Of a stretch of 48,710 nt of DNA, positions 7,388 to 28,018 are shown piece after piece (the first letter of the stretch is position 1; every line of letters begins with the position of its first letter). Position numbers and translations under genes: made by a program. Source of the DNA: Mycobacteriales bacterium (lineage in GTDB: Bacteria; Actinomycetota; Actinomycetes; JAFAQI01); contig DASZRO010000121.1 in NCBI GenBank assembly GCA_035550055.1, positions 1-48,710 on the forward strand. Reading direction: 5' to 3'. The notes beneath the pieces were generated by a model. That model was not told the origin of the DNA. It saw nothing but the letters and a program-made list of their open reading frames with translations, and made no database searches.

Positions 7388-7509
7388 TCGCGGCAGCTCC
7401 CGGCGGTGTTGCTCGTCAACCGCCACACAACCGCATCGACCGGCATCGGCAAGTACTTGACCGGCACGCATTCGGTTAAGGCTCCGGCGAGCACCGTCGA
7501 TGAACACCC

Positions 7510-8895: not shown

Positions 8896-10770
8896 CATCA
8901 GCTCGAGGTAGGCGTCCGTGACCGCCGACCACGAGAACTTCTCCCGGGCCCGGTCGGCGCTGAGCGCCCGCAACCTGCCGAGCTCGGTTTTGCCCAGCGC
9001 GTCCGCCTTGCGGATCAGATCGGCCAGGTCCGCCTCGTCCGCGAAGTACCACGCGTCAGGACCGGCCACCTCACGATTCTCCGGGGTGTCCAGGACCAGG
9101 CACAGGTTGCCGGCACCCATCGCTTCGATGAGCGCCGGATGCGTGCCGCCGACCTCGGTGGCATGGATGTAGCACCGGGCGTTGCTCTGAAGCGCCCGGT
9201 AACCCTCGCCGAAGATCGGTCCCGGCAGGATCGCGTCCGGGTGCGCGGCCGCGCGCACGTCACGCTCGAGGTCAGGGTCGTACGTCGCCCCACCGAGCAT
9301 GACCAGGCCGAGCCGGGTGCCCGCGGCGGCGTGTGCACGAGCAACCATCAACGGGTTGTTCTCCCGCTCCCACCGCGAGACATAGAGCGCGAAACGATCG
9401 GGACGAGCCGGAATGTCCGGTGGGAGCGGCGCTCCGCGAGGGATCGGATCGGCGCCGTACGGGATCATGACGGAGTCCGCGTCGTACCTGACCCGGTAGT
9501 AGGTGCGCACCTCCTCCGCGTCCGTGACGAGAACGCTGGCCCACTGGACCGACAACCACTCCCCTGCGCGATACCAGGCGCGTCCCGCGATTCCCCATTT
9601 GCCGCGACGCCACTCCAGCCCGTCCACGTTGATGAGGGTCCGACGGCCGGCAACCCGCAGCAGCGGCAGCACCGGGGCGTTGGCGGCGTTGCAGAGGATG
9701 ACGTCTCGGATTCGGGTGCGTGTGACGAGATGCGCCACCGACAGCACGGTGTGCACCACGGTGTCGAGGTATTTGTTCGAGATCGTCGGCAACGTCACCA
9801 GCCGCACTCCCCGCCACTGCGACCCCTCCGTCGCGTAGGTCTTCCGGCAGTACACCGTCACCGGGACGCCGCGCTCGACCAGCCGCAGCGCAAGCCGCTC
9901 CGCGAACGTCTCGAAACCGCCGTAGTTGGCAGGGATGCCGCGCGTGCCGAGGATGGCAACGCCATGGGCAAGGCGCCTGGGCTCGCTACGGATCGCCCGC
10001 AGCTTGGGTGTCAGGCCGGTGGCGCGCAGCAGCGGTACGCCGTGCAGCATGGCGATGCTGGCGACCCGCATCTCCAGACCCAGCATCCCGGGGGCGATGA
10101 GGACGTCGATCCCGGCGTCCGCCAGCGCGCCGGCCAACCGTCCCGCCCGCAGCGGATCGGTGTCGCTCGGCAGGATCAGCCCGTCCAAACGGAGCTCGCG
10201 GGCCCGCGCGACGAGCTCGTCCGCGGCAAGGTCGCCGGGCAGTACGTCGACGACGACGAACGGCGACCCTGGTGCGCGGGTCAGGTCCCCCAGCAGGCGT
10301 CGCCCCGCCGCGTCGTCACCGACGACGGCGTAGCGTTCCAGTCCGATCCCGATCGGGACCAGCATCCGGCGCAGTCTGCGGATCGCACCTCGCGTCGCGA
10401 TGCCGAACACCAGCAGCCACAGCGTGACGAGCCCGATCCAGGCCCTCGACAGGTCGGCGTCGATCAGAGCCTCGTTGACGATGAAGATCGCCACCCCGAC
10501 GACGAAAGCCGCCTCCACCGCTTGCTCGACGTTCGTCTCGCCGAGTCGCAACGCTCCGCGCCGGTACAGGCCCGCCGCCCGGCCTGCCAGGACCCATCCC
10601 ATGGCCATGGCAGCTGTCGTCACCTGGTAGCGAACGACGTACACGCCCGGAAGCCCCGCACTGCCGAAGCGCAGCGTGTAGGCAATCCATGATGCGAGCA
10701 CCGCGGATCCGAGGTCGACGATGGCGAGCATGAGATCGGCACGGCGCCGAAGCGCGAACATTTGCCGCAC
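8887..10770 (-). CDS. fusion: phosphoglycosyltransferase-type membrane/Rossmann domain + DUF1972/GT4 glycosyltransferase
   Basis: This 627-residue protein joins two parts usually found separately. Residues 1-260 look like the N-terminal half of polyprenyl-phosphate hexose-1-phosphate transferases (CoA_binding_3-like): four hydrophobic helices at about 12-34, 45-68, 88-105 and 108-128, then a Rossmann-like region (YAVVGDDAAGRRLLGDL) ending in HGVPLLRATGL. The catalytic Bac_transf domain expected next is absent. Instead, residues 270-627 are a DUF1972 plus GT4 glycosyltransferase (GTRGIPANYGGFETFAERL; later EVGGTHPALIEAMGAG with the GT4 EX7E-type motif). DUF1972 enzymes are known to add rhamnose to lipid-linked glucose in capsule synthesis. 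The fusion probably fixes the GT at the membrane. The 3' end overlaps the convergent gene by 9 bases. Confidence 0.82.
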   Translation of the reverse strand: MRQMFALRRRADLMLAIVDLGSAVLASWIAYTLRFGSAGLPGVYVVRYQVTTAAMAMGWVLAGRAAGLYRRGALRLGETNVEQAVEAAFVVGVAIFIVNEALIDADLSRAWIGLVTLWLLVFGIATRGAIRRLRRMLVPIGIGLERYAVVGDDAAGRRLLGDLTRAPGSPFVVVDVLPGDLAADELVARARELRLDGLILPSDTDPLRAGRLAGALADAGIDVLIAPGMLGLEMRVASIAMLHGVPLLRATGLTPKLRAIRSEPRRLAHGVAILGTRGIPANYGGFETFAERLALRLVERGVPVTVYCRKTYATEGSQWRGVRLVTLPTISNKYLDTVVHTVLSVAHLVTRTRIRDVILCNAANAPVLPLLRVAGRRTLINVDGLEWRRGKWGIAGRAWYRAGEWLSVQWASVLVTDAEEVRTYYRVRYDADSVMIPYGADPIPRGAPLPPDIPARPDRFALYVSRWERENNPLMVARAHAAAGTRLGLVMLGGATYDPDLERDVRAAAHPDAILPGPIFGEGYRALQSNARCYIHATEVGGTHPALIEAMGAGNLCLVLDTPENREVAGPDAWYFADEADLADLIRKADALGKTELGRLRALSADRAREKFSWSAVTDAYLELMSG

Positions 10771-10858
10771 GACAGCAAACTACTGTGCGCTCAGCCCGGT
10801 GCGCCCGCGTGCACGGACCACAGGCGGGCGCGCCGCGTAGCATGGCTCACGAGCCCTG

Positions 10859-12130
10859 ATGAGAGTTCTGCTGGTCACGAAGTTCCTCCACTACGTCGGG
10901 GGCGTCGAGACCTATGTGCAGTGGCTCGCCCGCTCGCTCGTCGACGACGGACACGAGATCGCGCTCGTGGGCATGGCCCCGCAGCCCGAAAAGCCGGCGC
11001 TTCAGCTGCCGGCGGGTACCGAACTGTTCACCGCGCCGTCACGGTCGTACGCAGCGGACTCCGACCACCGAGTGCGGGATGCACTGGCATCGGTCTACAG
11101 TCCGGCCGCCCGGCAGACGATGGAGGCCGCCATCCGCAGCTTCCGCCCCGATGTGGCGCACTTCCACAGCACCTGCCACCAGCTCACCCCGTCGATCTTC
11201 CACGCCGCGGCCCGTCACAGGCTTCCGTCGGTGATGACTGCCCACGAGTACAAGCTCGTGTGCGCCAACCAGGTCCTGTACGACGACCGCGCCCAGACCG
11301 TCTGTACGGCGTGCGTCGGCGTCAGTGCACCGCGAAAGTTCCTCGCGATCACCAGCCGCCGTTGCATCAAGGGGAGCATCGGCGGTGCGTTGCTGGGCGC
11401 CGTCGAGGCACCGATCAGCACCCAGCTGTGGGGGCGGACGGAGGGCACCGTCCTTGCACCGTCGGCGTTCATGGCGGGCGTGCTGCGAGGCGACGGTCTG
11501 CCGAGCGACCGCGTCGAGCACCTCGAGCTTCCGTGGCCCGAGGTACGTGTCCCTGAAGCGGTCGGTCGTGACTCCGTGCTCTATTTCGGGCGCATCGAGA
11601 AGGAAAAAGGGATCTTCGTCGCCCTCGACGCGTGGGCGAAGGTGCACGAGCGGCTACCGGGACTGACGCTGCGCATCGCCGGAGCCGGTAACGCCCTCGA
11701 CGAGGCTCGGCACGTCGGAACTCGTCTGCCCCGCGTCGAGTTCCTCGGCCACCTCCAGCAGGCCGAGCTCGCGAGGGAGCTCGATCGGTCCGTCATGACC
11801 GTTCATCCGTCGTTGTGCAACGAGAACAGTCCGTTCAGCGTTCGCGAGAGCCTGTGCGCGGCGGTGCCTGCCGTCGTTTCCCGCATCGGCGGGATGCCCG
11901 AGCTCGTCGACGAGCCCACCGGTCGCATCGTCTCGCCGGGTGACGTCGAGGAGTGGGCCGAGGCGATTCTCGCGGAGGCGGAACGGGCGATCGCCGGCGC
12001 CGACGCGCTCCTCAGCGCGGTGACGGCGCGCAGGCTGTCGCCGACTCGTCACCTCGAGTCGCTCGTCGCGGCGTACCAGAAGGCGAACCGGTCGCGTTCT
12101 ACGATGGCCTCGTCGACCCAGCCGACCTGA
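10859..12130 (+). CDS. GT4-family glycosyltransferase with a Cys cluster
   Basis: This 423-residue protein is a GT-B fold retaining glycosyltransferase of family 4. The N-terminal acceptor domain begins MRVLLVTKFLHYVGGVETYV, and the C-terminal nucleotide-sugar domain contains VLYFGRIEKEKGI and the EX7E motif (ENSPFSVRE) followed by GGMPELVDE. In the middle, a group of cysteines (C141, C156, C159 and C176 approximately) in the context AHEYKLVCANQVLYD resembles the metal-binding insert of some capsule GT4 enzymes. The ATG at 10859 diverges from the fusion gene across 88 bases, which must hold both promoters. The next glycosyltransferase starts 14 bases downstream, so the two are co-transcribed. 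Donor and acceptor sugars are unknown. Confidence 0.85.
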   Translation: MRVLLVTKFLHYVGGVETYVQWLARSLVDDGHEIALVGMAPQPEKPALQLPAGTELFTAPSRSYAADSDHRVRDALASVYSPAARQTMEAAIRSFRPDVAHFHSTCHQLTPSIFHAAARHRLPSVMTAHEYKLVCANQVLYDDRAQTVCTACVGVSAPRKFLAITSRRCIKGSIGGALLGAVEAPISTQLWGRTEGTVLAPSAFMAGVLRGDGLPSDRVEHLELPWPEVRVPEAVGRDSVLYFGRIEKEKGIFVALDAWAKVHERLPGLTLRIAGAGNALDEARHVGTRLPRVEFLGHLQQAELARELDRSVMTVHPSLCNENSPFSVRESLCAAVPAVVSRIGGMPELVDEPTGRIVSPGDVEEWAEAILAEAERAIAGADALLSAVTARRLSPTRHLESLVAAYQKANRSRSTMASSTQPT

Positions 12131-12144
12131 GAGGCGAGCTTCAT

Positions 12145-13344
12145 ATGCGGCTTGGCCTCGTCGGAGTGGGCTACTTCCCGTTTCTGATTGCGGGTGAGAA
12201 GAACTTCTACTTCCGGCTGGTGCCTGAGCTACGCCCGAAGCTCGACGACCTCGTCGTCATCTCGGTCAACGACGCAGCCGAGCGCATTTCCCATCAGGAC
12301 ACGCCCGCCGGCGAGGTGCCGATCTACAACTTCGTGCGACCGATCGACGGACGACGCGACAACCGCCACTTCGGGACCACGAACGGCGTCCGTCATTACC
12401 ATCATCGCCACAACGCGATGCGCGAGATCGGCGAGAAGTCGGCGACACTCCTCCTGGGCACGCGCCGGATCCGGCAGATCGTCAAGGACCACTCGCTGGA
12501 CTGGCTATACTTCCTGGACAACTTCGGCCCTGGCATGGCGTACGCCCGCCGCGCGTTCGGCACCAGCGTCGGCTTCGCCGCCGCCAACTATCAACCCCGC
12601 GGTGCGCGGTACGACGCATTGCAGCAGCGCTTCGTCCAACCGCTGGACCTGGTCGTCACCTACTCGAAGGCCTACCGCGACATCCTGCGCACGATGCTTC
12701 CGGCGGAACGTATCGAAGTCATCCATTGGGGCGTTGACCCGGAGGGGTTCACACCGAGATCGCAAGCCGATCGCGACGCGGCGCGTGCTGAGCTCGGCAT
12801 CTCGCCCGGCGCCACGCTCGTGGTCTGGTCCGGCTTCCTCCAGCAGATCCAGGCCGAGGACTTCCGCAGGACAGTGGCGATCGCCCGTGAGGTACGCAGC
12901 GCGCGGCGCGACATCGAGTTCCTGTTCTGCTTCAAGCCAGAGACCTATCGCGCCGACTTCAGCGTCGAGTCGGCGGACGGGGTCCAGGTGCTGTGTGGCG
13001 TCCCCCGCTTCGTCGACCTCCTGGCGGCGGCGGACGTCTTCCTCTCCCCCGTCGGCAACGTCCGCTCGACGGTCTCGCCGCCGCTGACCTGGATCGAGGC
13101 GATGTCAATGGGCACTCCCGTCCTCAGCACGCGTGTCGGCGGCGCGGCAGAGGTCATCGACGACGGCGTCTCCGGCTACCTCGTCGACGGCTACGCGCAG
13201 CTCGCCGATGCGCTTCGGAGAATGGGCAGCCCCACCGAATCGATGCGAGCGGCGGCACGCCGCACCGTCATCGATCGCTACCAGATCGCGACCGCGGCCG
13301 CTCGCCACATCGACGCCTTCCAGAAGCGCGGCCGGCGTGACTGA
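12145..13344 (+). CDS. GT4-family glycosyltransferase
   Basis: This 399-residue protein is a second GT4-type glycosyltransferase. It begins MRLGLVGVGYFPFLIAGEKN, has the hinge IEVIHWGVDPEGFTP before the donor-binding domain, and ends with a typical LTWIEAMSMGTPVLSTRVGG block (E and G residues that contact the nucleotide-sugar). I chose the ATG at 12145 because GAGG lies about ten bases upstream. The frame is open further upstream, but those codons are the shadow of the preceding gene. It is the middle gene of a three-gene plus-strand set; its stop codon lies inside the start of the methyltransferase gene. Substrates are unknown. Confidence 0.85.
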   Translation: MRLGLVGVGYFPFLIAGEKNFYFRLVPELRPKLDDLVVISVNDAAERISHQDTPAGEVPIYNFVRPIDGRRDNRHFGTTNGVRHYHHRHNAMREIGEKSATLLLGTRRIRQIVKDHSLDWLYFLDNFGPGMAYARRAFGTSVGFAAANYQPRGARYDALQQRFVQPLDLVVTYSKAYRDILRTMLPAERIEVIHWGVDPEGFTPRSQADRDAARAELGISPGATLVVWSGFLQQIQAEDFRRTVAIAREVRSARRDIEFLFCFKPETYRADFSVESADGVQVLCGVPRFVDLLAAADVFLSPVGNVRSTVSPPLTWIEAMSMGTPVLSTRVGGAAEVIDDGVSGYLVDGYAQLADALRRMGSPTESMRAAARRTVIDRYQIATAAARHIDAFQKRGRRD

Positions 13345-13999
13345 CGATCCGAAGGTCGCTGAGGCCTGGCTCGACGCCGACTCGGCTGCCGACTACGAGC
13401 GTCGACGGTTCACCACGCTGGCGGGACGGCTGTCCCAGCGGCTCGACTTCATCGCGTTGCGGCGAAGCCTTCACGGACTGCCGAAGAGCGCACCGATTCT
13501 CGACCTCCCGTGCGGGACCGGGCGAGCGTTGCGGTTCATGGCGGCGCGGGGCTTTCGCAACCTCTCCGGCGCCGACGTGTCGCCGGCCATGCTTGCCGTC
13601 GCCAAGTCGGCGGCCGGCAACGTCACGTTCGTCGAGTGCGACGCCTCGAAGACCAACCTGCCCTCTGCCGGCTACGACCTGGTGTTCTCGATGCGGTTCT
13701 TCGGGCATGTAGCCCCTGAGGACCGGCCCGCCATTCTCGAAGAGATGGCCCGTCTCTCGGCGGGCCGTGTGGTCATCGAGATTCCGATCTCCTCTCGCTC
13801 GGCGCACTTTGCCAAGTCCGTCTTACGACGGCACACCGTGGGAAGCCGGTTGCCGAGCAAGTTCGACTGGCACGCGGGATCGCTTCGCACTTTCCGCGCG
13901 CAGGCCGCAGCGGCAGGGCTGGAGGTCGTGGCCGCCCGTCGCAAGCTGCCCGTCCTGTCCGACTCCCGGTTCGTGGAGCTGCGGGTGATCCCGCGCTAG
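13337..13999 (+). CDS. class I SAM-dependent methyltransferase
   Basis: This 220-residue protein has the Rossmann-like SAM fold. Motif I is ILDLPCGTGRALRFMAARGF, motif II an acidic residue at LSGADVSPAML, and motif IV NLPSAGYDLVFSMRFFGHV. The GTG at 13337 overlaps the stop of the glycosyltransferase by eight bases, so translation is probably coupled. In this setting it would methylate a sugar or terminate a glycan chain; that is inference from position. The 3' end overlaps the convergent flippase gene by four bases. Confidence 0.82.
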   Translation: MTDDPKVAEAWLDADSAADYERRRFTTLAGRLSQRLDFIALRRSLHGLPKSAPILDLPCGTGRALRFMAARGFRNLSGADVSPAMLAVAKSAAGNVTFVECDASKTNLPSAGYDLVFSMRFFGHVAPEDRPAILEEMARLSAGRVVIEIPISSRSAHFAKSVLRRHTVGSRLPSKFDWHAGSLRTFRAQAAAAGLEVVAARRKLPVLSDSRFVELRVIPR

Positions 14000-15411
14000 G
14001 AGCGCTTGCCGAGCGCATGCCGGAGATCCGCGACGGCCAGGGACGGCCACGTCCGGATCGCCACCAGCCGCCAGGCGAGGACAGCCATCGCGACGCCCTG
14101 CGCGACCGAGCCGAGTCCGGACGCCACGGCGACGCCACGCGCTCCGTAGTGCTCGCCGAGCCCGAACTCGGCGCCGAGCGTGGCGATGGTGACGGCAACG
14201 GATCCGATCATCGTTGCCCGTTGATGACCGGTCGAGGTGAGCACCACCGCCGCACCAGCGGTCAGCGCCGCCGCAGCGGGTCCGATTGCCAGCAGCGCAA
14301 GCAGCACCCCGCCGCCGGCGTAGGCGTGTCCGAACACCACCCGAATCGCCGGCCCGCCGACGCACGCGGCGACGATGCACCCCACGCAGGTCAGCCCGCC
14401 CGACACCGATGCGGCCGCGCGTGCCACCCGCTCAATGCGGTCCCGATCGTTTCTCGACCACAGCCCGGCGACGACCGGGGCGAGTACCAGCGTGCCGGCG
14501 ACGTAGGGAACGAAGAGCAGGTTGCAGATCCGCGACGCGAGGTTGTACGTCGCGGTGTCGACTCGGCTTGCCAAATGTCCGACGATCAACGTGTCGCCTT
14601 GAACGAGCAGGCGGTTGGCCACGGTGTACACGAGGATCGGCAACGCGAAACGCACCACCGCGCTTATCTCGACACTGAGATCGGCGGTCCGTCGAGTGGG
14701 GTGCGTGGCGCGACCCAACGACGCGAGCATCGCTAACGACGCACACACCGACAGCGCACACACCGCAACCGCGTAGACGAGCACGACTCGCCTGACGGTC
14801 ACGGCGTCGGCCGCCGCGAGGCCGCCGATAGCGCCCAGGATCAGGACCGCTCGGCCGGCGAACCCGAAGGTCACGGCCAGCCCGACACGATGAAAGCCGC
14901 GAAAGATCTCCGCGACCGTGATCTGAAAACCTTCGAAGACGACCCCAACCGCGACCAAGGTCGACAGCCGAGCCAGCTGCGGGTCGTGGGTGAAGTCGCG
15001 AAGGGTCGGTGGCAGGACGACGAGGGCGAGCACCGGAAGCAACAGCGCCGCGATCACCGCCGCGACGAGCCACGTCGACCATGCGGCTCGTTTCGCCCCG
15101 GAAGCGCCGTCGGAGGTCAGCCGGGCGGAGATGAGGCGGACCGCGGTCGGCGGCAGCCCGAACTGCGAAACCACCGCCCCGAGGGTCAAGACGGTGAAGA
15201 AGATCACCACGCTGCCGTAGTCCGCCGGACGCATCGCCCGTGCCAGCACGAGCAGGATGGCGAAGGTGCCGACCCGGTACGACGCCTCGCCGATGACGAC
15301 GACGCCGGCCGACGACCTCAGATAGCGGCCCAGCCTTCCGGTTTCGAGCACACCGTCGGGCGGCGGCTCGGTACCGCCAGCAATGGGCTCAGCGTCCGAT
15401 TGCAGGCTCAC
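13996..15411 (-). CDS. Wzx-like lipid-linked oligosaccharide flippase
   Basis: This 471-residue protein has about 12-14 hydrophobic helices and the polysaccharide-synthesis/MOP pattern: an N-terminal cytoplasmic stretch, then VVVIGEASYRVGTFAILLV and LARAMRPADYGSVVIFFTVL, the usual opening of Wzx flippases. It should move undecaprenyl-linked glycan units from the inner to the outer face of the membrane, where the ligase-like protein (5495-7387) could use them. The GTG start at 15411 overlaps the TGA of the upstream Pro-rich gene, so the two are translationally coupled on the minus strand. No initial phosphoglycosyltransferase for the pathway is visible in the window. Confidence 0.85.
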   Translation of the reverse strand: MSLQSDAEPIAGGTEPPPDGVLETGRLGRYLRSSAGVVVIGEASYRVGTFAILLVLARAMRPADYGSVVIFFTVLTLGAVVSQFGLPPTAVRLISARLTSDGASGAKRAAWSTWLVAAVIAALLLPVLALVVLPPTLRDFTHDPQLARLSTLVAVGVVFEGFQITVAEIFRGFHRVGLAVTFGFAGRAVLILGAIGGLAAADAVTVRRVVLVYAVAVCALSVCASLAMLASLGRATHPTRRTADLSVEISAVVRFALPILVYTVANRLLVQGDTLIVGHLASRVDTATYNLASRICNLLFVPYVAGTLVLAPVVAGLWSRNDRDRIERVARAAASVSGGLTCVGCIVAACVGGPAIRVVFGHAYAGGGVLLALLAIGPAAAALTAGAAVVLTSTGHQRATMIGSVAVTIATLGAEFGLGEHYGARGVAVASGLGSVAQGVAMAVLAWRLVAIRTWPSLAVADLRHALGKRS

Positions 15412-15920
15412 CCGAGCGGATGCGGGCCTCGGAGCGTCAGCACCTCCGCGACCGCCTTGAGCGCTACCGCGTTCGGGTCCTCCGGATGGAGCTCGAAGCC
15501 GGTGCCGTCGACGAATCCCAGCCGAACCGCGGGATCGCTCGTCGGCATCGGGTCCTCGGCGAGCGGCGGCATCGGGATGCTCGGCGACGGCGCGGGCGAT
15601 ATCGGGATGCTCGGCGACGGCGCGGGCGGCAGCGGATCGGCGGGCGGTGCCGCCACCAGCGGCGGCTGCACGAACGGCGGCGGGCCCACGGCGACCGGTG
15701 GCGGCGCGACCGGCGCGTCCGGCGCCGGCGGGGGTACGACGGTCACCGTCGTCTCAGGTGGCGGCATCACGACCGACGGGACGCCGGGATCGCCGGCTTG
15801 CGCCCACGAGCCGGGCGTATAGCTGCCCAGCGGATTCGCGCGGTCCGCGTCCTTACGCGGCGAACGTCGGGGCCAGCGCACGTACCGACTGTACGCCGCG
15901 ATCGGGGTCCCGGCGGGCAA
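15408..15920 (-). CDS. proline-rich protein of unknown function
   Basis: I do not recognise this protein (170 residues from the TTG at 15920). The first 45 residues are basic and aromatic (IAAYSRYVRWPRRSP). The middle (about residues 50-120) is Pro/Ala/Val-rich and includes two copies of PAPSPSIP encoded by a perfect DNA repeat. The last 40 residues (LGFVDGTGFELHPEDPNAVA) look like a small folded domain. The coding-like frame continues upstream to about 15965, up to the dioxygenase stop, but only ATT or CTG codons are available there, so the true start is unsure. The stop overlaps the flippase start (GTGA). Its position between a prolyl-hydroxylase-like gene and a flippase suggests a secreted or envelope-linked partner, although no clear signal peptide is seen. 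Confidence 0.6.
   Translation of the reverse strand: MPAGTPIAAYSRYVRWPRRSPRKDADRANPLGSYTPGSWAQAGDPGVPSVVMPPPETTVTVVPPPAPDAPVAPPPVAVGPPPFVQPPLVAAPPADPLPPAPSPSIPISPAPSPSIPMPPLAEDPMPTSDPAVRLGFVDGTGFELHPEDPNAVALKAVAEVLTLRGPHPLG
15571..15628. repeat. two-copy 28-bp direct repeat inside the Pro-rich gene
   Basis: The 28-bp sequence at 15571-15598 recurs exactly at 15601-15628, a 30-bp period that keeps the reading frame. It encodes two copies of the peptide PAPSPSIP. This points to recent in-frame duplication within the proline-rich segment, a length-variable site. Confidence 0.9.
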
Positions 15921-15964
15921 CGAAACGTGCAGGTCAGCGGGCGTTTCCGGCGTACCGGACGAAA

Positions 15965-16735
15965 TCAGCGGTTCCTCGCCGTCGCGCTGCCGAGGAAGCG
16001 GTTCTTGACCCGCACCGCCGCGTCGTAATGGCGGGCGAGGGAACGCTTCAGCGTCCCGGCGTCCTCCGGCGCCCAGCCCGTCGTGCGGGGCTTCGTGCTG
16101 CCGACCTCGATCCGCTGGTAGGCGTACGTCGCGATCGACTTACGCGTCACCCCAGGCGGCAGCGCCATCTTCTTGAAGCCGTGGTAGGTGTGCGCGTCGC
16201 TGAGCATGATCACGCCGCGGTTGAACAACGGCTCGATCGCCCGGGCCTCGCCGTCGAGGCTCGCCTTGATGAGCAGGCGGCCGTCGTACTCGGGCTTCCA
16301 GTCCTTGTTGAGGTAGAGCAGGATGTTCAGCGTCCGCAGCCAGTCGGGGTGCAGCGGGTGCACGTTGAAGTCGACGTGGTTGTCGAGGTACCCGCCGTCG
16401 GCGCTCTGATGGAACCCGCCACCGTGGAAGGCAGGGTCGACGAAGAGCTCCTTGCCCGTCAGCGCCGAGATGAAGGTCCGGAACTGCTCACCCATCAAGG
16501 CGTCGTAGAGGGCACGCGAGGCCTCGCCCTGCTCGGCGACGCTCGACAGCTCGTGCTTGTCCCCGAACACGTAGTCGCGCGACTTGGGCATCGCGTCCGG
16601 CTTCGGGAACTCGCGCAACACCGCGTCCGCTGCCGCCGCTTCCAGGAAGTCGTCGATGACGAGCACCGGGAACGGCGATGCCGTCCGGTAGGTCTCGGCG
16701 AGCTCCTCGCCACGACCGATCCAGTCGTTGAACAC
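15965..16735 (-). CDS. 2-oxoglutarate/Fe(II)-dependent dioxygenase, prolyl 4-hydroxylase-like
   Basis: This 256-residue protein has the double-stranded beta-helix dioxygenase pattern. The iron ligands are visible as H120 and D122 (DNHVDFNVHP) and a distal His, probably H185 (TYHGF). The 2-oxoglutarate anchor is R198 or K199 (GVTRKSIATYAYQRIE). The layout matches prolyl 4-hydroxylase-like and related small-molecule or protein hydroxylases (2OG-FeII_Oxy_3 type). It starts two bases after the GTPase stop, so it belongs to the Roadblock/DUF4388/GTPase transcript, and a Pro-rich protein gene follows. Three products of this strand carry long Pro-rich segments, making protein proline hydroxylation a reasonable guess. 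A sugar- or lipid-modifying role in the glycan pathway is the alternative. Confidence 0.83.
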   Translation of the reverse strand: MFNDWIGRGEELAETYRTASPFPVLVIDDFLEAAAADAVLREFPKPDAMPKSRDYVFGDKHELSSVAEQGEASRALYDALMGEQFRTFISALTGKELFVDPAFHGGGFHQSADGGYLDNHVDFNVHPLHPDWLRTLNILLYLNKDWKPEYDGRLLIKASLDGEARAIEPLFNRGVIMLSDAHTYHGFKKMALPPGVTRKSIATYAYQRIEVGSTKPRTTGWAPEDAGTLKRSLARHYDAAVRVKNRFLGSATARNR

Positions 16736-16737
16736 GG

Positions 16738-17316
16738 CTAGGCCTGGGCGGCGGTCGCCGTGTCGAGGGAGTCGACGACGGCGTAGAGCAGCGCGAGCAG
16801 CACACCCTTGACCGACTCGCGATCGGTCACGTCACACGGCACGATCGGCGTGCCCGACTCGAGGTCGAGCATCCCGCGGATGCGCCCCTCCTCGGCCTCG
16901 TCGAGGCTGTCGGCGCGGTTGTAGCCGACCACGAACGGGACGTGGGCCATGGCGCGGAACGCCTCGAGGATGCTGGCCGCCTCGCTGAGGGAGTCCGGCC
17001 GCGCGGCGTCGACGAGCAGCACGTAGCCGAGCATGCCTTCGGACAGGATCTCCCACATGAAGTCGAACCGGTCCTGGCCGGGAGTGCCGAACAGGTAGAG
17101 GACCAGGTCGCGGTCGATCGTGATGCGGCCGAAGTCCATCGCGACGGTCGTATCGGTCTTGCGGGACAGCTCGACGTCGCTGACGGCCTTCTCGGTCGAC
17201 AGCACCGTGATCTCGCTGATGGTGCGGATCAAGGTCGTCTTGCCGGCGGCGAACGGACCGGTCACCACGATCTTGACCGCGGTGCCGCCCTGACGTCGGC
17301 GCGTTCTGGCTACCAC
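16738..17316 (-). CDS. small Ras/MglA-like GTPase
   Basis: This 192-residue protein is a small cytoplasmic P-loop GTPase of the bacterial type found beside Roadblock proteins. G1 is GPFAAGKTT (about residues 20-28), the switch I Thr lies in KTDTTVAMDFG, G3 is GTPGQDRFDFMW with the Gln that often matters for catalysis, and G4 is NRAD in place of the usual NKxD. The GTG at 17316 directly abuts the DUF4388 stop, and the dioxygenase gene starts two bases after this stop. MglA-type GTPases set cell polarity and direct type IV pili in other bacteria; in actinobacteria similar GTPases occur in conservons. No sensor kinase or DUF742 gene is adjacent, so this is not a standard conservon. Confidence 0.88.
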   Translation of the reverse strand: MVARTRRRQGGTAVKIVVTGPFAAGKTTLIRTISEITVLSTEKAVSDVELSRKTDTTVAMDFGRITIDRDLVLYLFGTPGQDRFDFMWEILSEGMLGYVLLVDAARPDSLSEAASILEAFRAMAHVPFVVGYNRADSLDEAEEGRIRGMLDLESGTPIVPCDVTDRESVKGVLLALLYAVVDSLDTATAAQA

Positions 17317-18447
17317 TTACAACCCCCGAACGCCGGCGATCAGCCGCAGCAGCAGGCTCTTGTTGACATTTGGGTCGCGCTCGATCGCAGCCGGCGTACC
17401 GGCAGCTCCGTTCGCGGATGCGGCGGTGAACACTTCGGCCGGTTGCGGCTGCGGCACCGACGTGAACGGTCCGGGGTCGCGGTGCGGCACCACCGGCCGC
17501 GGCGCGGGCGCGGCAGGTGCAGGTGCAGGGGCGGGCGGAGTGGGTGGTGGCGCAGGGGTCTCGTAGACCGGCTGCACCGGTGTCGGCGGAACGTACGGTG
17601 CCGGGATCGGCTCCGCCGGGAACGTCGCCGGGGGCGGCGGCGCAGGGGTTGCCGGGGCGGGTTGGGCCGGTACGGCGACCGGTCCGGTCGTGACCGGAGC
17701 CTCGATGGCGCTGAACAGCTCCTGGCGGCGGGTCAGCGCGGTCACGCCGCCGTCCTCGGTCTCGAGCAGCTTGCGCGCCACGAGGTCGGCGAGGGTGACG
17801 ACGACGGCGTACTCGCCGCGGCCGCACAGATCCACGATCTCGCCGACCGAGCGCTGACCGTCGACGAGAGCGAGGATCGACCACTCGTCGGCGCTGAGCT
17901 GAGGCTCCGCCGGCGGGTCGCAGGTGATGGTCAGCACGGTGTCCTGGTCGGCGACGGCCGGGTCGATCGTGGCCCACTGGTCCAGGCGCCGTCGGGCCTC
18001 GGCCACGACGTCGTCAACCCGGCAGTTGACGCCGACCCCGTCGCGATTGGGCTCGTCGACGACGAAGGCGAACGAGCCGTCCGTCCAGCGCATCAGGTCG
18101 AAGACGGCGTCCATGATCTGCTCGGTCACCAACGAGTGCAGGTCACCTTCGTCGATCGCGTCCGCGTCGCGCAGCACGCTGGCCACCCCGGCGTCGGCGT
18201 CGAGGCGGACCTGGGTCACGGCCGCGGTGAGGGCGGCGTCGGTGACCCGACCGCTGCCGGCGATCCGCCGGCCGAGTGACTGCCGCGACAGGTCGGAGGC
18301 TCCCCCGGTCAGCATGCCGTCGGCGAACCAGACCGCGCCATGGGAGCCCGACCGCTGCAGGTGCAGCCCGCCGGTCTTCTTGGTCATGCTCAGCAGCGAG
18401 AAGATGTCGGGCAAGCTGAAGGCATCGAGGGTGCCTTCAAGCTTCAC
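17317..18447 (-). CDS. DUF4388 (PATAN) domain protein with Pro-rich tail
   Basis: The first 160 residues or so of this 376-residue protein match the DUF4388/PATAN domain: MKLEGTLDAFSLPDIFSLLS, then KTGGLHLQRSGSHGAVWFADG, with IMDAVFDLMRWTDGSFAFV later. Residues 190-245 form a small winged-helix-like segment (SADEWSILALVDGQRSVGEI). From about 250 to 330 the chain is almost only Pro and Ala, ending in a short conserved tail (NVNKSLLLRLIAGVRGL) that may bind a partner. PATAN proteins are known to bind PilB and steer type IV pili in cyanobacteria. The gene stands between the Roadblock gene and the GTPase gene, abutting the latter. The start is a GTG at 18447. Confidence 0.85.
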   Translation of the reverse strand: MKLEGTLDAFSLPDIFSLLSMTKKTGGLHLQRSGSHGAVWFADGMLTGGASDLSRQSLGRRIAGSGRVTDAALTAAVTQVRLDADAGVASVLRDADAIDEGDLHSLVTEQIMDAVFDLMRWTDGSFAFVVDEPNRDGVGVNCRVDDVVAEARRRLDQWATIDPAVADQDTVLTITCDPPAEPQLSADEWSILALVDGQRSVGEIVDLCGRGEYAVVVTLADLVARKLLETEDGGVTALTRRQELFSAIEAPVTTGPVAVPAQPAPATPAPPPPATFPAEPIPAPYVPPTPVQPVYETPAPPPTPPAPAPAPAAPAPRPVVPHRDPGPFTSVPQPQPAEVFTAASANGAAGTPAAIERDPNVNKSLLLRLIAGVRGL

Positions 18448-18494
18448 GGTTGACCTCGGCTGCTAGTGGTTGCGGTTCGGTGCGACTCGTCGGA

Positions 18495-19268
18495 TCAGGA
18501 CCAGGACTGCTGCTCGCCGACCGGGGCGCCGGCACCGTTGCTGCCGTTGGGCAGGTGCGTCGCCCACGCCGGGTCTGAGGTGATCGGTGCGTACGCCGGC
18601 AACGGCTGCGTGTCGGCATTCGGCTCGCCGACCGGCTTCACATAGGTGTCGGCACCGGCTGCGTAGGGCACCGCCTCGGGGGCCATCGGGGCCGGCACGT
18701 AGGCCGGGACCTCAGCCTGGACCGGCGGTGCGGGCGGGTAGTCGACCGGCGCCGGCGCGTACGACGGGGGCTCGTAGGCGGGCGGCTCGTACGCGGCCGG
18801 CTGCGGCTGGTAGGCAGGAGGCGCAGCGGGCGCGGGGGCGTAGCCGGCGGCCGGTGCAGCCGCGGGCGCCGCGGCCGCCTCGTGTGAGTTGCGCAGGACC
18901 TCAGCGACCCGTTCGGCCGCTCGGCGTACTTCGTAGAGCATCATGCCGACCTTGGCCTCGCGGGCCGCGACCGCGACCAGCACGGCTTCGTCCTCGGCCC
19001 CGCACAGGAACACGGTGCCGTGGTCGCCCTCGATGTAGACCTGGTTGAGTCCGCCGCGGCCGAGGCCCTCCGCGGCGCGCTCGCCGAGGCTGAGCAGCGA
19101 CGCGCTCATCGCGGCGACGCGGTCCTCGTCCATCGCGGCCGGAAGCGCGCTCGCCATCGGCAGGCCGTCGAAGGACACCACCGCCGCCGCCTCAACCTCC
19201 GGCGCCTGCGCCAGCAGATCAGCGATCACGCGGTCGAGCTGCTGTGAGCGGCTGGACAGGTCGGACAT
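18495..19268 (-). CDS. Roadblock/LC7 domain protein with Pro/Ala/Tyr-rich tail
   Basis: Residues 1-125 of this 257-residue protein form a Roadblock/LC7 domain: SRSQQLDRVIADLLAQAPEV, then AAVVSFDGLPMASALP and GTVFLCGAEDEAVLVAVAAR. Such proteins (MglB type) are regulators or activators of small GTPases. The remaining 130 residues are disordered Pro/Ala/Tyr repeats (YEPPAYEPPSYAPAP). It is the first gene of the minus-strand set Roadblock-DUF4388-GTPase-dioxygenase, starting 84 bases beyond the whiA stop with a hairpin between. This suggests a promoter of its own in the 19269-19352 gap. Confidence 0.9.
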   Translation of the reverse strand: MSDLSSRSQQLDRVIADLLAQAPEVEAAAVVSFDGLPMASALPAAMDEDRVAAMSASLLSLGERAAEGLGRGGLNQVYIEGDHGTVFLCGAEDEAVLVAVAAREAKVGMMLYEVRRAAERVAEVLRNSHEAAAAPAAAPAAGYAPAPAAPPAYQPQPAAYEPPAYEPPSYAPAPVDYPPAPPVQAEVPAYVPAPMAPEAVPYAAGADTYVKPVGEPNADTQPLPAYAPITSDPAWATHLPNGSNGAGAPVGEQQSWS

Positions 19269-19352: not shown

Positions 19353-20342
19353 TCACGGCGCGTCGGCGAGCATCTCCGGGGTCAGGGACGCCTCCGTGTT
19401 GGGAATACCCAGTTCGTCGGCACGTACGTCCGCCATGGCGAGCAGCCGGCGGATCCGCCCGGCGATCGCATCCTTGGTCAGCGGCGGCTCGGCCAGCGCC
19501 CCGAGCTCCTCCAGCGAGGCATTCGCATGCTCGAGGCGCAGCCGCCCGGCCGAGAGCAGATGCTCCGGCGCCTCGTCACCCAGGATCTCCATCGCGCGGG
19601 AGACCCGCGCTCCGGCGGCAACTGCCGCGCGGGCGGAGCGGCGCAGGTTCGCGTCGTCGAAGTTCGCGAGCCGGTTCGCGGTTGCCCGGACCTCGCGGCG
19701 CAACCGGCGCTCCTCCCACGCCAGGACACTGTCGTGCGCACCGAGCTTGGTCAGCATCACCCCGATCGCGTCGCCGTCGCGGATCACGACCCGGTCGACG
19801 CCCCTGACCTCCCGGGCCTTGGCGGCCACCCCGAGCCGCCGCGCCGACCCGACCAGCGCGAGGGCGGACTCCGGCCCGGGACAGGTGATCTCCAGCGACG
19901 AGGACCGACCCGGCTCGGTGAGCGAGCCGTGGGCCAGGAACGCACCGCGCCAGGCGGCGGCCGCGTCACACAGCGCGCCGGAGACGACCTGCGGCGGCAG
20001 GCCCCGCACCGGGCGGCCGTTGCCGTCCACCAGGCCGGTCTGTCGGGCGAGCGCCTGAGCGTCCTTCGTCACGCGGACGAGGTAGCGCGACCCTTTGCGA
20101 AGGCCGGCCGCAGAGACCACCGCGAGCTCCGAGCTGTGCCCGTAGACCTCGGCGAGGTCCTTGCGAAGGCGGCGCGCGGTGGCACCGGTGTCCAGATCGG
20201 CCTCGATCATCAGCTGGCCCTTGCCGATCAGGTGCAGTCCGCTGGCGAAGCGCAACAGCGTCGCGATCTCGGCCTTACGGCAGCACGGCTTGGTCACAAC
20301 GACGCGAGCCAGCTCGTCCTTGACCGCTGCCGTCATTGCCAT
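19353..20342 (-). CDS. whiA: sporulation/cell-division transcription regulator WhiA
   Basis: This 329-residue protein matches WhiA in length and pattern. It has an N-terminal degenerate LAGLIDADG homing-endonuclease-like fold (starting [20 protein letters not shown], with [20 protein letters not shown]) and a C-terminal helix-turn-helix (residues about 225-315, [20 protein letters not shown] to [19 protein letters not shown]). In actinobacteria WhiA works with WhiB to control cell division and, in sporulating species, septation; it occurs across Gram-positives. The start lies 11 bases after the yvcK stop, so it is the last gene of the uvrC-rapZ-yvcK-whiA operon. The usual actinobacterial neighbours downstream (gap-pgk-tpiA) are absent here. 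Confidence 0.96.
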
Positions 20343-20353
20343 CCAATGTCCCC

Positions 20354-21355
20354 TCAGGAGCGAAAGATCGAGGCGTACGCCGCGGCAAGCCGCTGCGGGT
20401 CGTGGGTCGGCACGGTCTGGTCCGCGCCGAGGTGGGCCACCACGAGCTGCGCACCGAGGCTCGCCGCGCCGGCCTCCAACGATGCCATGCCGTCTGCGGT
20501 GGACCTGCGGGGAGCCAGCACGACGTCGACGTGAAGGTCAGGCGCGTGGGCCGCGAGGACCTCGAGGTGGGTCGTCGGCGAGAAGCCCTCGGTCTCCCCC
20601 GTCTGCGCCGACATGTTCAGCGTGACGACGCATCGCGCCTTGGACTCGGCGAGCGCCTTGACGATCCCCGGGACCAGCACGTGCGGGATCACGCTGGTGA
20701 ACCACGACCCCGGCCCGAACACCACCCAGTCGGCGTCGAGCACCGCCTCGACCGCCTGCGGGCAGGCCTCAACGCCCGGCGGGTCGAGGCGCACGCCGAC
20801 GACCTGGCCCGGCGTGGTCGCGACGGCGACCTGTCCGCGGACCTCGTGCAGCGCCGTACGATCGCCGGGCTCGAGCCCGAGCACGTCGGCAACGATGTCG
20901 AGCGGCGTGGTCGACAGCGGCAGGACCCGCCCGACGGCACCGAGCAGCCGGCCGACCGCGTCGAGGGAGGCGACCGGATCGTCGAGGATGTCGGTGAGAC
21001 CGACCAGCAGGAGGTTGCCGACCGGGTGTCCCGCCAGGGTGGCCTCACCGCCGAACCGGTGCTGGCACACCGACGCCCACAGCTGCGAGTCCGCGTCCTC
21101 GCCGGCCAGTGCCGCCAGCGCCATGCGCAGGTCTCCGGGTGGCAGCACCCCGAGCTCCTGCCGGATCACCCCGCTGGAGCCGCCGTCGTCGCCGACCGTC
21201 ACGACCGCGGTGAGGTTCGGCGTCACCCGGCGCAGCGCGGCCAGCGAAGCCGACAGCCCGTGGCCGCCGCCGAACGCGACCACCTTGTGGGCGGATGTGC
21301 CATCCGCTCCCCGATCGGCGAGCGGAGGTGCCGTCCGCTCTTCGGGGGCGGTCAT
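20354..21355 (-). CDS. yvcK: YvcK/CofD-like gluconeogenesis factor
   Basis: This 333-residue protein is of the YvcK (GlmR) family, related to CofD, which binds UDP-sugars and affects peptidoglycan precursor supply and carbon flow. The glycine-rich [20 protein letters not shown] (about 24-43) and [18 protein letters not shown] (about 53-70) are family signatures, as is [19 protein letters not shown] further on. An N-terminal extension of about 20 residues is not conserved. Its ATG overlaps the rapZ stop by four bases, and whiA follows after 11 bases. Confidence 0.96.
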
Positions 21356-22239
21356 TCGCGGTCCTTGTCGCGATGGCTCAGCGTGACGTCGACGCCGTCG
21401 CCGCGCAACCGGTTGGTCAGCTCCTCGGCGATCGCCACGCTGCGGTGACGGCCGCCGGTGCAGCCGATCGCGATGGTGGCGTACTGCTTGCCCTCGTTGA
21501 CGTAGCCGAGCTCGTAGCGGCGCAACAGCCGGGTTGCGTCGTCGACGAACTCGGCAGCGCCCGGCTGGCCGAAGATGTAGTCGCGGACCGCCGGATCCTG
21601 ACCGGACAACGGCTTGAGCTCGGGCACCCAGTGCGGGTTCGGCAGCAGCCGGCAGTCGATGACGACGTCGGCGTCGACCGGCAGTCCGTACTTGTAGCCG
21701 AAGGTGACCATCGACACGTGCAGCTCGTTGGCGCCGCTCTCGTCGAAGACGGCGGCGATCTTCGCCCGGAGCTCGTGGACGTTGAGCGCGCTGGTGTCGA
21801 GGACGACGTCGGCGACGCCGCGCACCTCGTGGAGCAGCTCGCGCTCCTCCGCGATCCCTTCGAGGACGCGGCCCCCGCCCTGCAACGGGTGCGGGCGGCG
21901 TACGCCGTCGAAGCGGCGGACCAACACCTCGTCCGGCGCCTCCAAGAACACGATGCGGGGGTCGAATCCCCCCTCCCGCACGCCGGCGAGGGCGGCGCTG
22001 AGGTCGGAGTTGAAGCCTCGGCTGCGGACGTCCACGACGACACCGACCCGATCCACGCCGCCGCCGGACTTCGCCGCGAGGTCAGCGACGTCCGGGATCA
22101 GCGCCGGCGGCAGGTTGTCAACGACGAACCAGCCGAGGTCTTCCAAGCACTTCGCCGCGGTGCTGCGTCCCGCCCCGGACAGGCCGGTGATGACGGCGAG
22201 CTTCAACGACGGGTGAGCAGCTGCGGCGGGATCTGTCAT
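21352..22239 (-). CDS. rapZ: RapZ family nucleotide-binding protein (RNase adapter)
   Basis: This 295-residue protein is a RapZ (YvcJ) family P-loop protein. The Walker A motif is [20 protein letters not shown], with [11 protein letters not shown] close behind. The C-terminal half has [20 protein letters not shown] and [16 protein letters not shown], both family signatures. In E. coli RapZ guides RNase E to the GlmZ RNA; in actinobacteria its target is unknown but the gene is always beside yvcK. Start and stop both overlap their neighbours by four bases (uvrC upstream, yvcK downstream), so the operon is translationally coupled. Confidence 0.96.
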
Positions 22240-24272
22240 GGCGCTGTCCCCGAGCCTGCCACCGACGCGGGCACCGTGTCCTGGGATTCCAGAATCTCGC
22301 CCGTCACAGGATCCACCGCGGGCGCAGCAGGAGCAGCAGCCGCCAGTGCGGCGTGGATCGCCTCGGCAGTACGACGGCCGACCCCGGGCACCTCGGCGAG
22401 CTCCTCGACCGAGGCCGCCCGCATCCGCTTGACCGACCCGAACTTGCGCAGCAACGCCTTGCGCCGGACCTCACCCAGGCCCGGGATCCCGTCGAGGGCG
22501 CTGTCGACCATTCCCTTCGAGCGCCGCTGCCGGTGATAGGTGATGGCGAACCGGTGCGCTTCGTCGCGGACCCGTTGGAGCAGGTAGAGGGCCTCGCTGG
22601 TCCGCGGCAGGATGACCGGGTCGGGACGTCCCGGCAGCCAGACCTCCTCGAGCCGCTTCGCGAGGCCGCAGAGCGCGACGTCGTCGATGCCGAGCGCCGC
22701 CATCGCGTCGGCCGCCGCCGCGACCTGGGGCGCGCCACCGTCGACCACGACCAGCTGCGGCGGGTAGGCGAACTTGCGCGGCTTGCCGGTCTCGGGGTCG
22801 ATGGGTGACATCGGCGCGTCGTTCGGCGTACCCGCCTCGGCGGTGTCGATCTCGACCTCAGCGGTGTCGATGCGCTCTTCGAGGTAGCGCCGGAAGCGGC
22901 GGCTGATCACCTCACGAATCGATCCGACGTCGTCCTGACCCGGCCCACGGACCGCGAACCGGCGGTACTCGCTCTTGCGCGCCGACCCGTCCTCGAACAC
23001 CACCATCGAGGCGACGATGTCGCTGCCCTGCAGGTTGGAGACGTCGAAGCACTCGATGCGAAGCGGCGCCTGGTCGAGACCGAGCGCGTCCTGGAGCTCC
23101 TGTAGTGCCAGCGCTCGCGCCGTCAGGTCGCTGGACCGGCGCAGCTTGTGCCGCTGGAACGACTCCTTGGCGTTGCGTTCGACCGTCTCGATCAGCGCGC
23201 GCTTGTCGCCGCGCTGCGGCACCCGCAGGTCGACCCGCCCGCCGCGCGCGAGGCCGAGCAGCTCCGCTACGACGTCCGCGTCCTGCGGCAGCTCGGGCAC
23301 GAGCACCTCGCGCGGCACGTCCACCTCGGCGGCACCCGCGTCGAGGTAGGCCTGGGTCAGGAACTGCTCGACGAGACCGGCGGTGTCGATGTCCTCGACC
23401 TTCTCGACCACCCAACCGCGGACGCCTCGCACCCGGCCGCCGCGCACGTAGAAGACCTGCACCGCGGCCTCGAGCTCGTCCTGGGCGAACGCGACCACGT
23501 CGGCGTCCGTCCCGTCGCCGAGCACGACGGCCTGCTTCTCCATCGCGCGGTTCAGCGCACCGATGTCGTCGCGTAGCCGCGCGGCCCGCTCGTACTCCTG
23601 CGCTTGGGACGCGGCGCGCATCTCCCGCTCGAGTCGCTTCACGAACTTCTGCGTCTGGCCGGACATGAAGTCGACGAAGTCCTGCGCGATCGCGCGGTGC
23701 TCGTCGGCGCTGACCCGGTCGACGCAAGGCGCGGAGCACTTGCCGATGTAGCCCAGCAGGCACGGCCGGCCGACCTGGCCCGCCCGCTTGAACACGCCAG
23801 CGCTACAGGTGCGCACCGGGAAGACCCGCAGCAGCGCGTCGAGGGTGTCCCGGATCGCCCAGGCATGGGCGTACGGCCCGAAGTACTTCACGCCCTTGCG
23901 CTTCGCGCCCCGCATCACCTGGGCCCGGGGGTAGGCCTCGTCGAGGGTGACGGCGAGCCACGGGTAGGACTTGTCGTCGCGGTAGCGGACGTTGAACCGC
24001 GGGTCGAACTCCTTGATCCAGTTGAACTCGAGCTGGAGCGCCTCGACCTCGGTCGAGACGATCGTCCAGTCGACGGAGGCGGCGGTCCGGACCATCCGTT
24101 GGGTGCGCGGGTGCAGCGCCGCGATGTCCTGGAAGTAGGAGCCGAGCCGGCTGCGCAGGCTCTTCGCCTTGCCGACGTAGATGACCCGGCCGTGCTCGTC
24201 ACGGAACCGGTAGACGCCGGGTGAGTCGGGGATCGTGCCGGGAGCCGGTCGATAGCTCGCCGGGTCCGCCAC
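22236..24272 (-). CDS. uvrC: excinuclease ABC subunit C
   Basis: This 678-residue protein makes the dual incisions of nucleotide excision repair. It has the N-terminal GIY-YIG domain ([21 protein letters not shown], residues about 16-95), the cysteine-containing linker and UVR motif, the RNase H-like C-terminal nuclease domain ([20 protein letters not shown], with VVDGGAPQ later) and the tandem helix-hairpin-helix ([20 protein letters not shown]). Length and order are normal; a short Ala/Pro-rich tail follows. The start is a GTG at 24272. It heads the uvrC-rapZ-yvcK-whiA operon and is separated from uvrA by a long perfect hairpin. Confidence 0.97.
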
Positions 24273-24310
24273 GCCTGTCGAATCTAGTCCGCACCACCGA
24301 CAGAGCCCCA

Positions 24311-24358
24311 GTGCGTGAAGAGCGACGTGTAGCCGACTACACGTCGCTCTTCACGCAC
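24311..24358. terminator. 22-bp perfect hairpin between uvrA and uvrC
   Basis: The arms at 24311-24332 and 24337-24358 are perfectly complementary over 22 bp with a 4-base loop (CCGA). The hairpin begins eight bases past the uvrA stop on the minus strand. It has no T run but is strong enough to stop or process the uvrA transcript, and lies 38 bases before the uvrC start. The structure is symmetrical, so it would work on either strand. Confidence 0.8.
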
Positions 24359-24366
24359 CGCAGAGG

Positions 24367-27264
<2,898 letters not shown>

Positions 27265-27355
27265 GGCTGCTTTCTCGGTGTCGGACGGCAGGGGGCGGGA
27301 GTCGGGTCCGATGTTACGTGCCGACGCCGACAGCCTCGCGCCGTATCGTGCGGTC

Positions 27356-28018
27356 ATGACCGATGACTACACCGGGGCAGTGACAGTCGGCGGGCCGCCC
27401 GACATCCGCGACCTCGGCGGCGGGCTGCGCCTGGCGAAGGTGGCGGTGGGGCCGTACGACAACAACTGCTACTTCCTGAAGTGCGCCGACACCGGCGACG
27501 TCCTGCTGATCGACGCCGCGCACTCCCCCGACGTACTTCTCGGGGTCCTCGACCAGGACCGGCTCCAGCGGATCGTCACCACGCACCAGCACCCGGACCA
27601 CTGGGCCGCGCTGCCGGAGATGGTGGCGGCCACCGGGGCGCCGGTCGCGGCTCACCCGCAGGACGCCGAGCCGCTGCCGGTTCCGGTCAGCGAGCCGATC
27701 AACGAAGGCGACACGGTCACGGTCGGGACGCACCGGCTCTCGATCATTCATCTGGTCGGTCACACCCCCGGCTCCGTCGCCCTGCTCTACAGCGACGGTG
27801 ACCGGCCGCACCTGTTCACCGGCGACTCGCTGTTTCCCGGCGGGGTGGGCAACACGTTCGGGTCGAAGGAGAACTTCGAGCTGCTGTACGCCGACGTGGT
27901 GGCCAAGCTGTTCGACGTACTGCCCGACGACACCTGGTTCTACCCGGGTCACGGCAACGACAGCACGCTCGGCGCCGAGCGCCCGCACCTCGGCGAGTGG
28001 CACGAGAGGGGCTGGTGA
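27356..28018 (+). CDS. metallo-beta-lactamase-fold hydrolase
   Basis: This 220-residue protein is a glyoxalase II-like metallo-beta-lactamase hydrolase. The metal ligands are visible in THQHPDHW (the HxHxDH motif), [15 protein letters not shown] and the late YPGHGND. Such small enzymes commonly hydrolyse thioesters such as S-lactoylglutathione analogues, but the substrate here is unknown. The ATG at 27356 diverges from uvrA across 91 bases; no clear LexA box is seen there. Its TGA overlaps the GTG of the TrmO-like gene, starting a run of four coupled genes. Confidence 0.9.

Follow-up and report, generated by a model that had tools for sequence, protein, structure and literature searches.

The reading we favour, with rather better than even confidence, is that a Roadblock/LC7 protein, a DUF4388 (PATAN) protein and a small Ras-like GTPase form a G-protein module dedicated to controlling the type IVa pilus of actinobacteria; the module would gate docking of the PATAN protein on the extension ATPase PilB and thus extension. 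Because this triad lies directly before the pilus genes in many little-studied actinobacteria of soil and water, it probably decides when pili extend. The proposal builds on the observed gene content and domain make-up, the gene order in synteny with pilB-pilT-pilC-pilA, and the gain and loss of the cassette. The window, i.e., the whole analysed stretch of 48,710 nucleotides, is contig C121 of a source genome of 3.5 Mb in 122 contigs. The three adjoining minus-strand genes, first named in a sequence-only reading of this DNA, were each recognised by Pfam. The features of the triad are as follows.

18495 to 19268, minus strand: Roadblock/LC7 protein (257 aa; PF03259, Robl_LC7, E 5e-18)
17317 to 18447, minus strand: DUF4388/PATAN protein (376 aa; PF14332, E 5.5e-24, full-length domain)
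18109 to 18285, minus strand: helical insert (alpha-clip) of the PATAN domain (residues 55-113)
17698 to 17961, minus strand: winged-helix domain of the PATAN protein, DUF742 (CvnC)-like (residues 163-250)
17320 to 17385, minus strand: conserved extreme C-terminus of the PATAN protein, IERDPNVNKSLLLRLIAGVRGL (predicted helix 359-375)
16738 to 17316, minus strand: small Ras-like GTPase, CvnD-like (192 aa; Pfam)

The Roadblock and PATAN genes are spaced by 47 bp, and by coordinates the stop of the PATAN gene abuts the start of the GTPase gene. The Roadblock protein, encoded by the only Roadblock gene that a search of the source genome returned (18495-19268), consists of an N-terminal Robl domain with the motif SFDGLPMAS and a Pro/Ala-rich tail, and is a predicted GTPase-activating protein. 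The GTPase, of the P-loop kind, was matched in Pfam by PF03029 (E 8e-23), Arf (6e-6) and Ras (2e-5). The G1, G3 and G4 motifs previously ascribed to this protein stood the comparison with relatives unevenly: G1 (GPFAAGKTT) and G3 (FGTPGQ) are kept across the family, whereas G4, present in the window as N-R-A-D, has an Asp that varies among relatives. Many triad GTPases carry NRxx and not NKxD at G4, so that with the loss of the Asp their base specificity may be relaxed. The PATAN protein comprises the PATAN (DUF4388) domain, a winged helix, a disordered linker and a C-terminal helix. Its AlphaFold2 model reached a pLDDT above 90 over residues 1-230 and displayed both the alpha-helical insert of the PATAN domain (PF14332) and the helix at the C-terminus IERDPNVNKSLLLRLIAGVRGL, which is near-invariant in the family alignment (A1/A4). 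No REC (receiver) domain was found in the PATAN protein, and the PDB searches returned no close structure for the whole protein. Two tandem PF04185 phosphoesterase (phospholipase C-like) genes are also present in the window, at 28482-31978.

The surroundings of the triad contain the pilus genes and two further blocks.

43 to 462, minus strand: PilA-type prepilin (TIGR02532 above cut-off; GspG/PilA-type matches)
734 to 1957, minus strand: PilC platform protein (T2SSF, E 1e-67; NF052606, E 2e-129)
1969 to 3654, minus strand: PilT retraction ATPase (TIGR01420, E 1.8e-145, 484 bits, curated cut-off 319)
3791 to 5452, minus strand: PilB extension ATPase with an N-terminal MshEN (c-di-GMP-type) domain (TIGR02538, E 1e-192)
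5495 to 16735, no single strand assigned: polysaccharide and other genes between the triad and pilB (Pfam)
19353 to 27357, minus strand: whiA-yvcK-rapZ-uvrC-uvrA block (whiA, yvcK and rapZ by Pfam; uvrC and uvrA by sequence)

PilB was additionally matched by NF053729 (60 bits, cut-off 38) and PF05157 (E 4e-25), PilT starts with a Pro/Ala-rich extension, and the prepilin has an N-terminus of the GFxxxE type. Two more ATPases of the PilT/PilU family, of a second subtype, are encoded on contigs C66 (5814-6842) and C96 (303-1331), at about 453 bits. The distance from the stop of the GTPase gene (16738) to the start of pilB (5452) is 11.3 kb, in agreement with the earlier estimate of about 11 kb to pilB-pilT-pilC-pilA on the same strand; the pil genes were identified by TIGRFAM, NF and Pfam matches. 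Genes on the opposite strand lie inside this gap (7510-8895 and 10859-13999), so that in the source genome pilB is not transcribed together with the triad. The interval 5495-16735 encodes an O-antigen ligase-like protein, glycosyltransferases, a flippase and a 2OG oxygenase, and an insert of this kind between the GTPase gene and pilB is missing in most relatives. The whiA block is the upstream neighbour of the triad in part of the window's family, and aroE takes that place in most relatives. In several genomes of the window's family the triad adjoins whiA and polysaccharide genes precede pilB (the same layout is seen in L036). Judged from these gene arrangements, the gap between the triad and pilB in the window is a secondary split. 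In several families, an O-antigen ligase-like gene and/or a DUF1972 glycosyltransferase gene recurs in the space separating the triad from pilB (window 5495-10770, L036, L042, L043, L062 and L071), hinting at a link between pilus and polysaccharide.

The neighbourhoods were mapped in relatives, including 57 named loci; the named relatives are mostly MAGs of Frankiales, Nanopelagicales or other Actinomycetes, and the genus-level relative of the source genome is a Frankiaceae MAG. The usual order, on one strand, is alaS-ruvX-mltG-aroE-Roadblock-PATAN-GTPase-pilB-pilT-pilC-pilA (upstream genes by Pfam). Among the 33 loci in which the GTPase gene is followed by 2.5 kb or more of contig, pilB was located downstream of the GTPase gene in 28, with a median gap of 378 bp. 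The nearest upstream gene of the triad was aroE in 34 loci and whiA in three. The arrangement of the triad before pilB is spread over many families, and other classes of the phylum show the same operon order (L189-L207), in two cases with two Roadblock genes. The proposed link of the triad to a type IV pilus was thus upheld by its normal position directly upstream of pilB, within the class and in other classes. Two public MAGs named Spirochaetaceae and Mycobacterium (L091 and L103) carry the actinobacterial triad-pil operon; probably their names are wrong or the bins are mixed.

Co-occurrence was evaluated in 394 genomes of the class, with thresholds of E <1e-50 for PATAN orthologues (45 genomes) and E <1e-80 for PilT (102 genomes). 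The test set by the sequence-only reading, co-occurrence and joint loss with pilB/pilT, came out in its favour. PilT was detected in 44 of the 45 PATAN genomes, which cover 16 families, in comparison to 58 of the 349 PATAN-negative genomes (counts 44/1/58/291; Fisher p 1e-28); the single PATAN genome without PilT is 80% complete. For PATAN and the triad-type GTPase the counts were 40/5/0/349 (Fisher p 1e-49), and no triad-type GTPase was found without PATAN among the 394 genomes. Both p-values are too small, since related genomes were treated as independent. Outside the class, PilT was present in 68 of 69 PATAN genomes, yet also in nine of 11 sampled PATAN-negative genomes; PilT is common there anyway, so only adjacency is informative. 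The cassette was cleanly absent, with aroE directly before pilB, in several pilus-bearing relatives (L140, L141, L148, L150-L153 and L155). On the PilB tree, the presence and absence of the triad requires six changes, of which strongly supported branches force only one. Many genomes have the same pilus locus without the triad, and the triad is therefore not essential to the pilus.

Synteny of this kind could also be a matter of descent, the triad being an unrelated actinobacterial signalling module within an old gene string from alaS to pilA. The string does include the unrelated housekeeping genes alaS, ruvX, mltG and aroE, and the triad has parted from pilB and adjoins whiA in the window's family. 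We nevertheless regard this explanation as improbable, given that PilT was missing in only that one incomplete genome, that PATAN is a pilus-motor regulator domain elsewhere (PMC12288463), and that the PATAN gene alone stays beside pilB or pilT after the loss of the other two. The PATAN gene remains between aroE and pilB or pilT in L209 and L198, from which the genes for the GTPase and the Roadblock protein have been lost. This retention singles out PATAN as the component linked to the motor and suits a dedicated pilus module. Lone PATAN genes, at an aroE-pilB, aroE-pilT or aroE-aroC site, were located in L198 (8519-9991), L209 (10760-11779) and L099 (6062-7516). The C-terminal helix is kept in L209 and altered to RGLLxRLIDVRK in L198 and L099. 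The idea that this helix serves solely as a dock for the GTPase was weakened by the persistence of the PATAN tail without a GTPase in all three loci. A second PATAN protein of about 800 aa, with no other Pfam domain, is encoded in L052 at 9701-12100 (genome contig C18, 164703-165404). Its relatives, mostly frames of 400-1,300 aa, occur in nearly all triad genomes and also in a small number of genomes that have the pilus but not the triad, a distribution by which the long form looks like another pilus-associated PATAN protein.

The premise that PATAN proteins bind PilB in cyanobacteria agrees with published work, in which the PATAN regulators of Synechocystis bind PilB1 and PilC (PMC12288463, PMC9090330). 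The cyanobacterial PATAN response regulators (PixG, PixE, LsiR and PatA) share with the triad protein the PATAN domain and the pilus motor as a proposed target. In contrast, no REC domain was found in the triad PATAN protein, its C-terminus is DUF742-like, and its proposed input is the GTPase/Roadblock pair and not phosphorylation. When the PATAN insert (residues 55-113) was compared with the N-terminal half of the MshEN domain of PilB sequences from the same gene clusters, hhalign gave a probability of 94%, E 1e-7 and 26% identity, versus E 0.06-0.41 for shuffled controls. The fold agreed, as VIA-align matched residues 55-113 to the N-domains of MshE and PilF with Z about 5. The two closing Gln positions of the MshEN ligand residues (RLG...Q) are not conserved in the alignment of the PATAN family, and binding of c-di-GMP by the PATAN insert is therefore not claimed.

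Conservons act in development, antibiotic regulation and drug tolerance in Streptomyces and mycobacteria. The search with the triad GTPase was bimodal: triad-type proteins reached as far as E 1e-115, and CvnD-type proteins, set apart by a gap, began at about 1e-54 and grew weaker from there. These next relatives are CvnD proteins encoded beside DUF742 genes (E about 1e-54 to 1e-41), whereas MglA matched at only E 2e-5 in a comparison without MglA group 5 sequences; classical MglA was rejected on these values as the best assignment of the protein. A tree was built from 37 triad GTPases, 24 CvnD proteins and one MglA; in it CvnD formed one clade (100/100) with the triad GTPases outside, the root being unsure because the MglA branch is very long. 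The Roadblock profile matched the structures of CvnB5 (3leq, E 6e-12) and MfpD (9hef, E 8e-9) and also CvnB genes located beside DUF742, so that a CvnB-type Roadblock gene stands beside the GTPase gene. The Roadblock protein also has the Asp-Gly motif described for MfpD (PMC13015309). By sequence similarity, the GTPase and the Roadblock protein are nearest to CvnD and CvnB, and not to classical MglA.

The middle protein extends this relation. Its winged helix was aligned with DUF742 by hhalign (probability 93%, E 3e-7; shuffled controls E 0.05 or worse), and the exact C-termini of the two proteins align (LLLRLIAGVRGL versus LLERVLSGLRRL). A matrix built from the DUF742 tail only placed PATAN family tails in the top 19 positions among 1,702 ORF C-termini; as these tails are related to one another, the 19 places amount to a single observation. 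When the PATAN protein and a DUF742 protein (L113) were modelled with AlphaFold2, both models retrieved the same domain first (Z about 10), ranked above other winged helices, in a chain that we take to be NPRL2 of GATOR1; since the winged helix is a common fold, the shared match supports the relation but does not prove it. Nothing convincing came from searching the PDB with a single DUF742 sequence. The matched domain is the small middle domain of NPRL2, from the eukaryotic Rag-GTPase regulator GATOR1, and the likeness between models and structure makes a deep link between bacterial and eukaryotic GTPase regulators possible.

The triad thus shares with conservons and the mfp operon the gene order Roadblock - winged-helix protein - GTPase, and with conservons the GTPase sequences TTVAMDFGRI (with a conserved Lys before TTVAMDFG) and YLFGTPGQ, the Asp-Gly motif of the Roadblock protein, and a middle protein with a DUF742-like winged helix and C-terminal helix. 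It differs in its location in a pilus operon, in the shorter switch I loop of the GTPase, in the position of its GTPases outside the CvnD clade, and in a middle protein that starts with PATAN and not with the DUF742 sequence RPYxxTGGRT. DUF742 (PF05331) had no match in the source genome, and the operon contains no histidine kinase: where CvnA would come first, the upstream genes are whiA or aroE. This genome, with a single Roadblock gene and nothing matching DUF742, thus yielded no canonical conservon. The former claim of a design different from the conservon therefore stood as to the operon kinase and DUF742 and failed as to unrelatedness. The triad is probably a conservon core that lacks the kinase and carries a PATAN domain directed at the pilus, its PATAN protein resembling DUF742 remotely. 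We put forward tentatively, as a possibility short of an even chance, that the pilus-operon cassette is the ancestral actinobacterial G-protein system, that conservons arose from it through loss of PATAN (leaving DUF742) and gain of a kinase, and that PATAN imitates the MshEN domain of PilB.

The winged helix also raises the question of transcriptional control, in which it would bind DNA and the GTPase switch would regulate pilus or polysaccharide genes. DNA binding is frequent among winged helices, the conservon Cvn8 alters gene expression (PMC13343842), and several genomes have polysaccharide genes next to the triad. However, EYAVVVTLADLVA, the putative recognition helix, is devoid of basic residues, and the structure matched best by the winged helix is the NPRL2 domain of GATOR1 and not a DNA-bound regulator. 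DNA binding was accordingly judged unlikely, and transcriptional control very improbable.

For the favoured control of PilB, we infer all contacts and the direction of control as follows. The GTPase would be the switch, cycling between GTP and GDP, and the Roadblock protein the brake, speeding GTP hydrolysis as does MfpD, which has GAP activity on MfpB (PMC9769811). The PATAN protein would act as the adaptor: its winged helix and C-terminal helix would engage the GTPase/Roadblock pair, and it may promote nucleotide exchange, an activity proposed for the DUF742 protein MfpC (PMC13343842). The PATAN domain would dock on PilB, probably via the MshEN-like helical insert, and the nucleotide state of the GTPase would decide the engagement of PilB with the pilus base and extension; c-di-GMP sensed by the MshEN domain of PilB is a candidate co-signal. 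In the mfp operon the effector gene mfpA likewise follows the GTPase gene mfpB, and MfpA binds MfpB (PMC9769811, PMC4316618); for the triad, pilB occupies that place.

Alternatively, the triad could be a spatial polarity switch, placing the pilus machine at a pole or septum and not switching PilB activity. MglA/MglB set a precedent in Myxococcus (PMC4316618, PMC11580455), where MglA recruits PilB through SgmX (PMC11580455), and PixG, itself a PATAN protein, localises to the leading pole and interacts with PilB1 (PMC12288463). The MglA/MglB systems of Myxococcus, Thermus and Bdellovibrio resemble the triad in pairing a small GTPase and a Roadblock partner connected with type IV pili, and PATAN genes occasionally lie near group 1 and 5 mglA (PMC4316618). 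In contrast, the triad is embedded in the pilB operon with a dedicated PATAN adaptor, its GTPase is nearer to CvnD than to MglA, and the operon showed no gene resembling RomR or SgmX. Location and activity are difficult to distinguish on sequence grounds; we consider the spatial switch rather unlikely and prefer control of PilB activity.

PATAN genes near mglA or mglB were noted earlier (Makarova 2006, as cited in PMC4316618), and the actinobacterial pili examined so far are of the Tad/Flp kind (PMC6916266), type IVa pili being hardly studied. A search of the open-access literature, with subscription papers outside its scope, returned no description of an actinobacterial pilus-operon G-protein module, of its near relation to conservons or of the likeness between the PATAN insert and PilB. 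This likeness suggests how PATAN proteins, the cyanobacterial ones included, recognise the motor. A phylum-wide G-protein module in the pilus operon would offer a compact, testable case of a Ras-like switch controlling a pilus motor, one that stands without the many extra polarity factors of Myxococcus. For the poorly understood conservons, the module would supply a probable relative whose target is concrete, together with a role predicted for DUF742 and possibly a shared ancestry.
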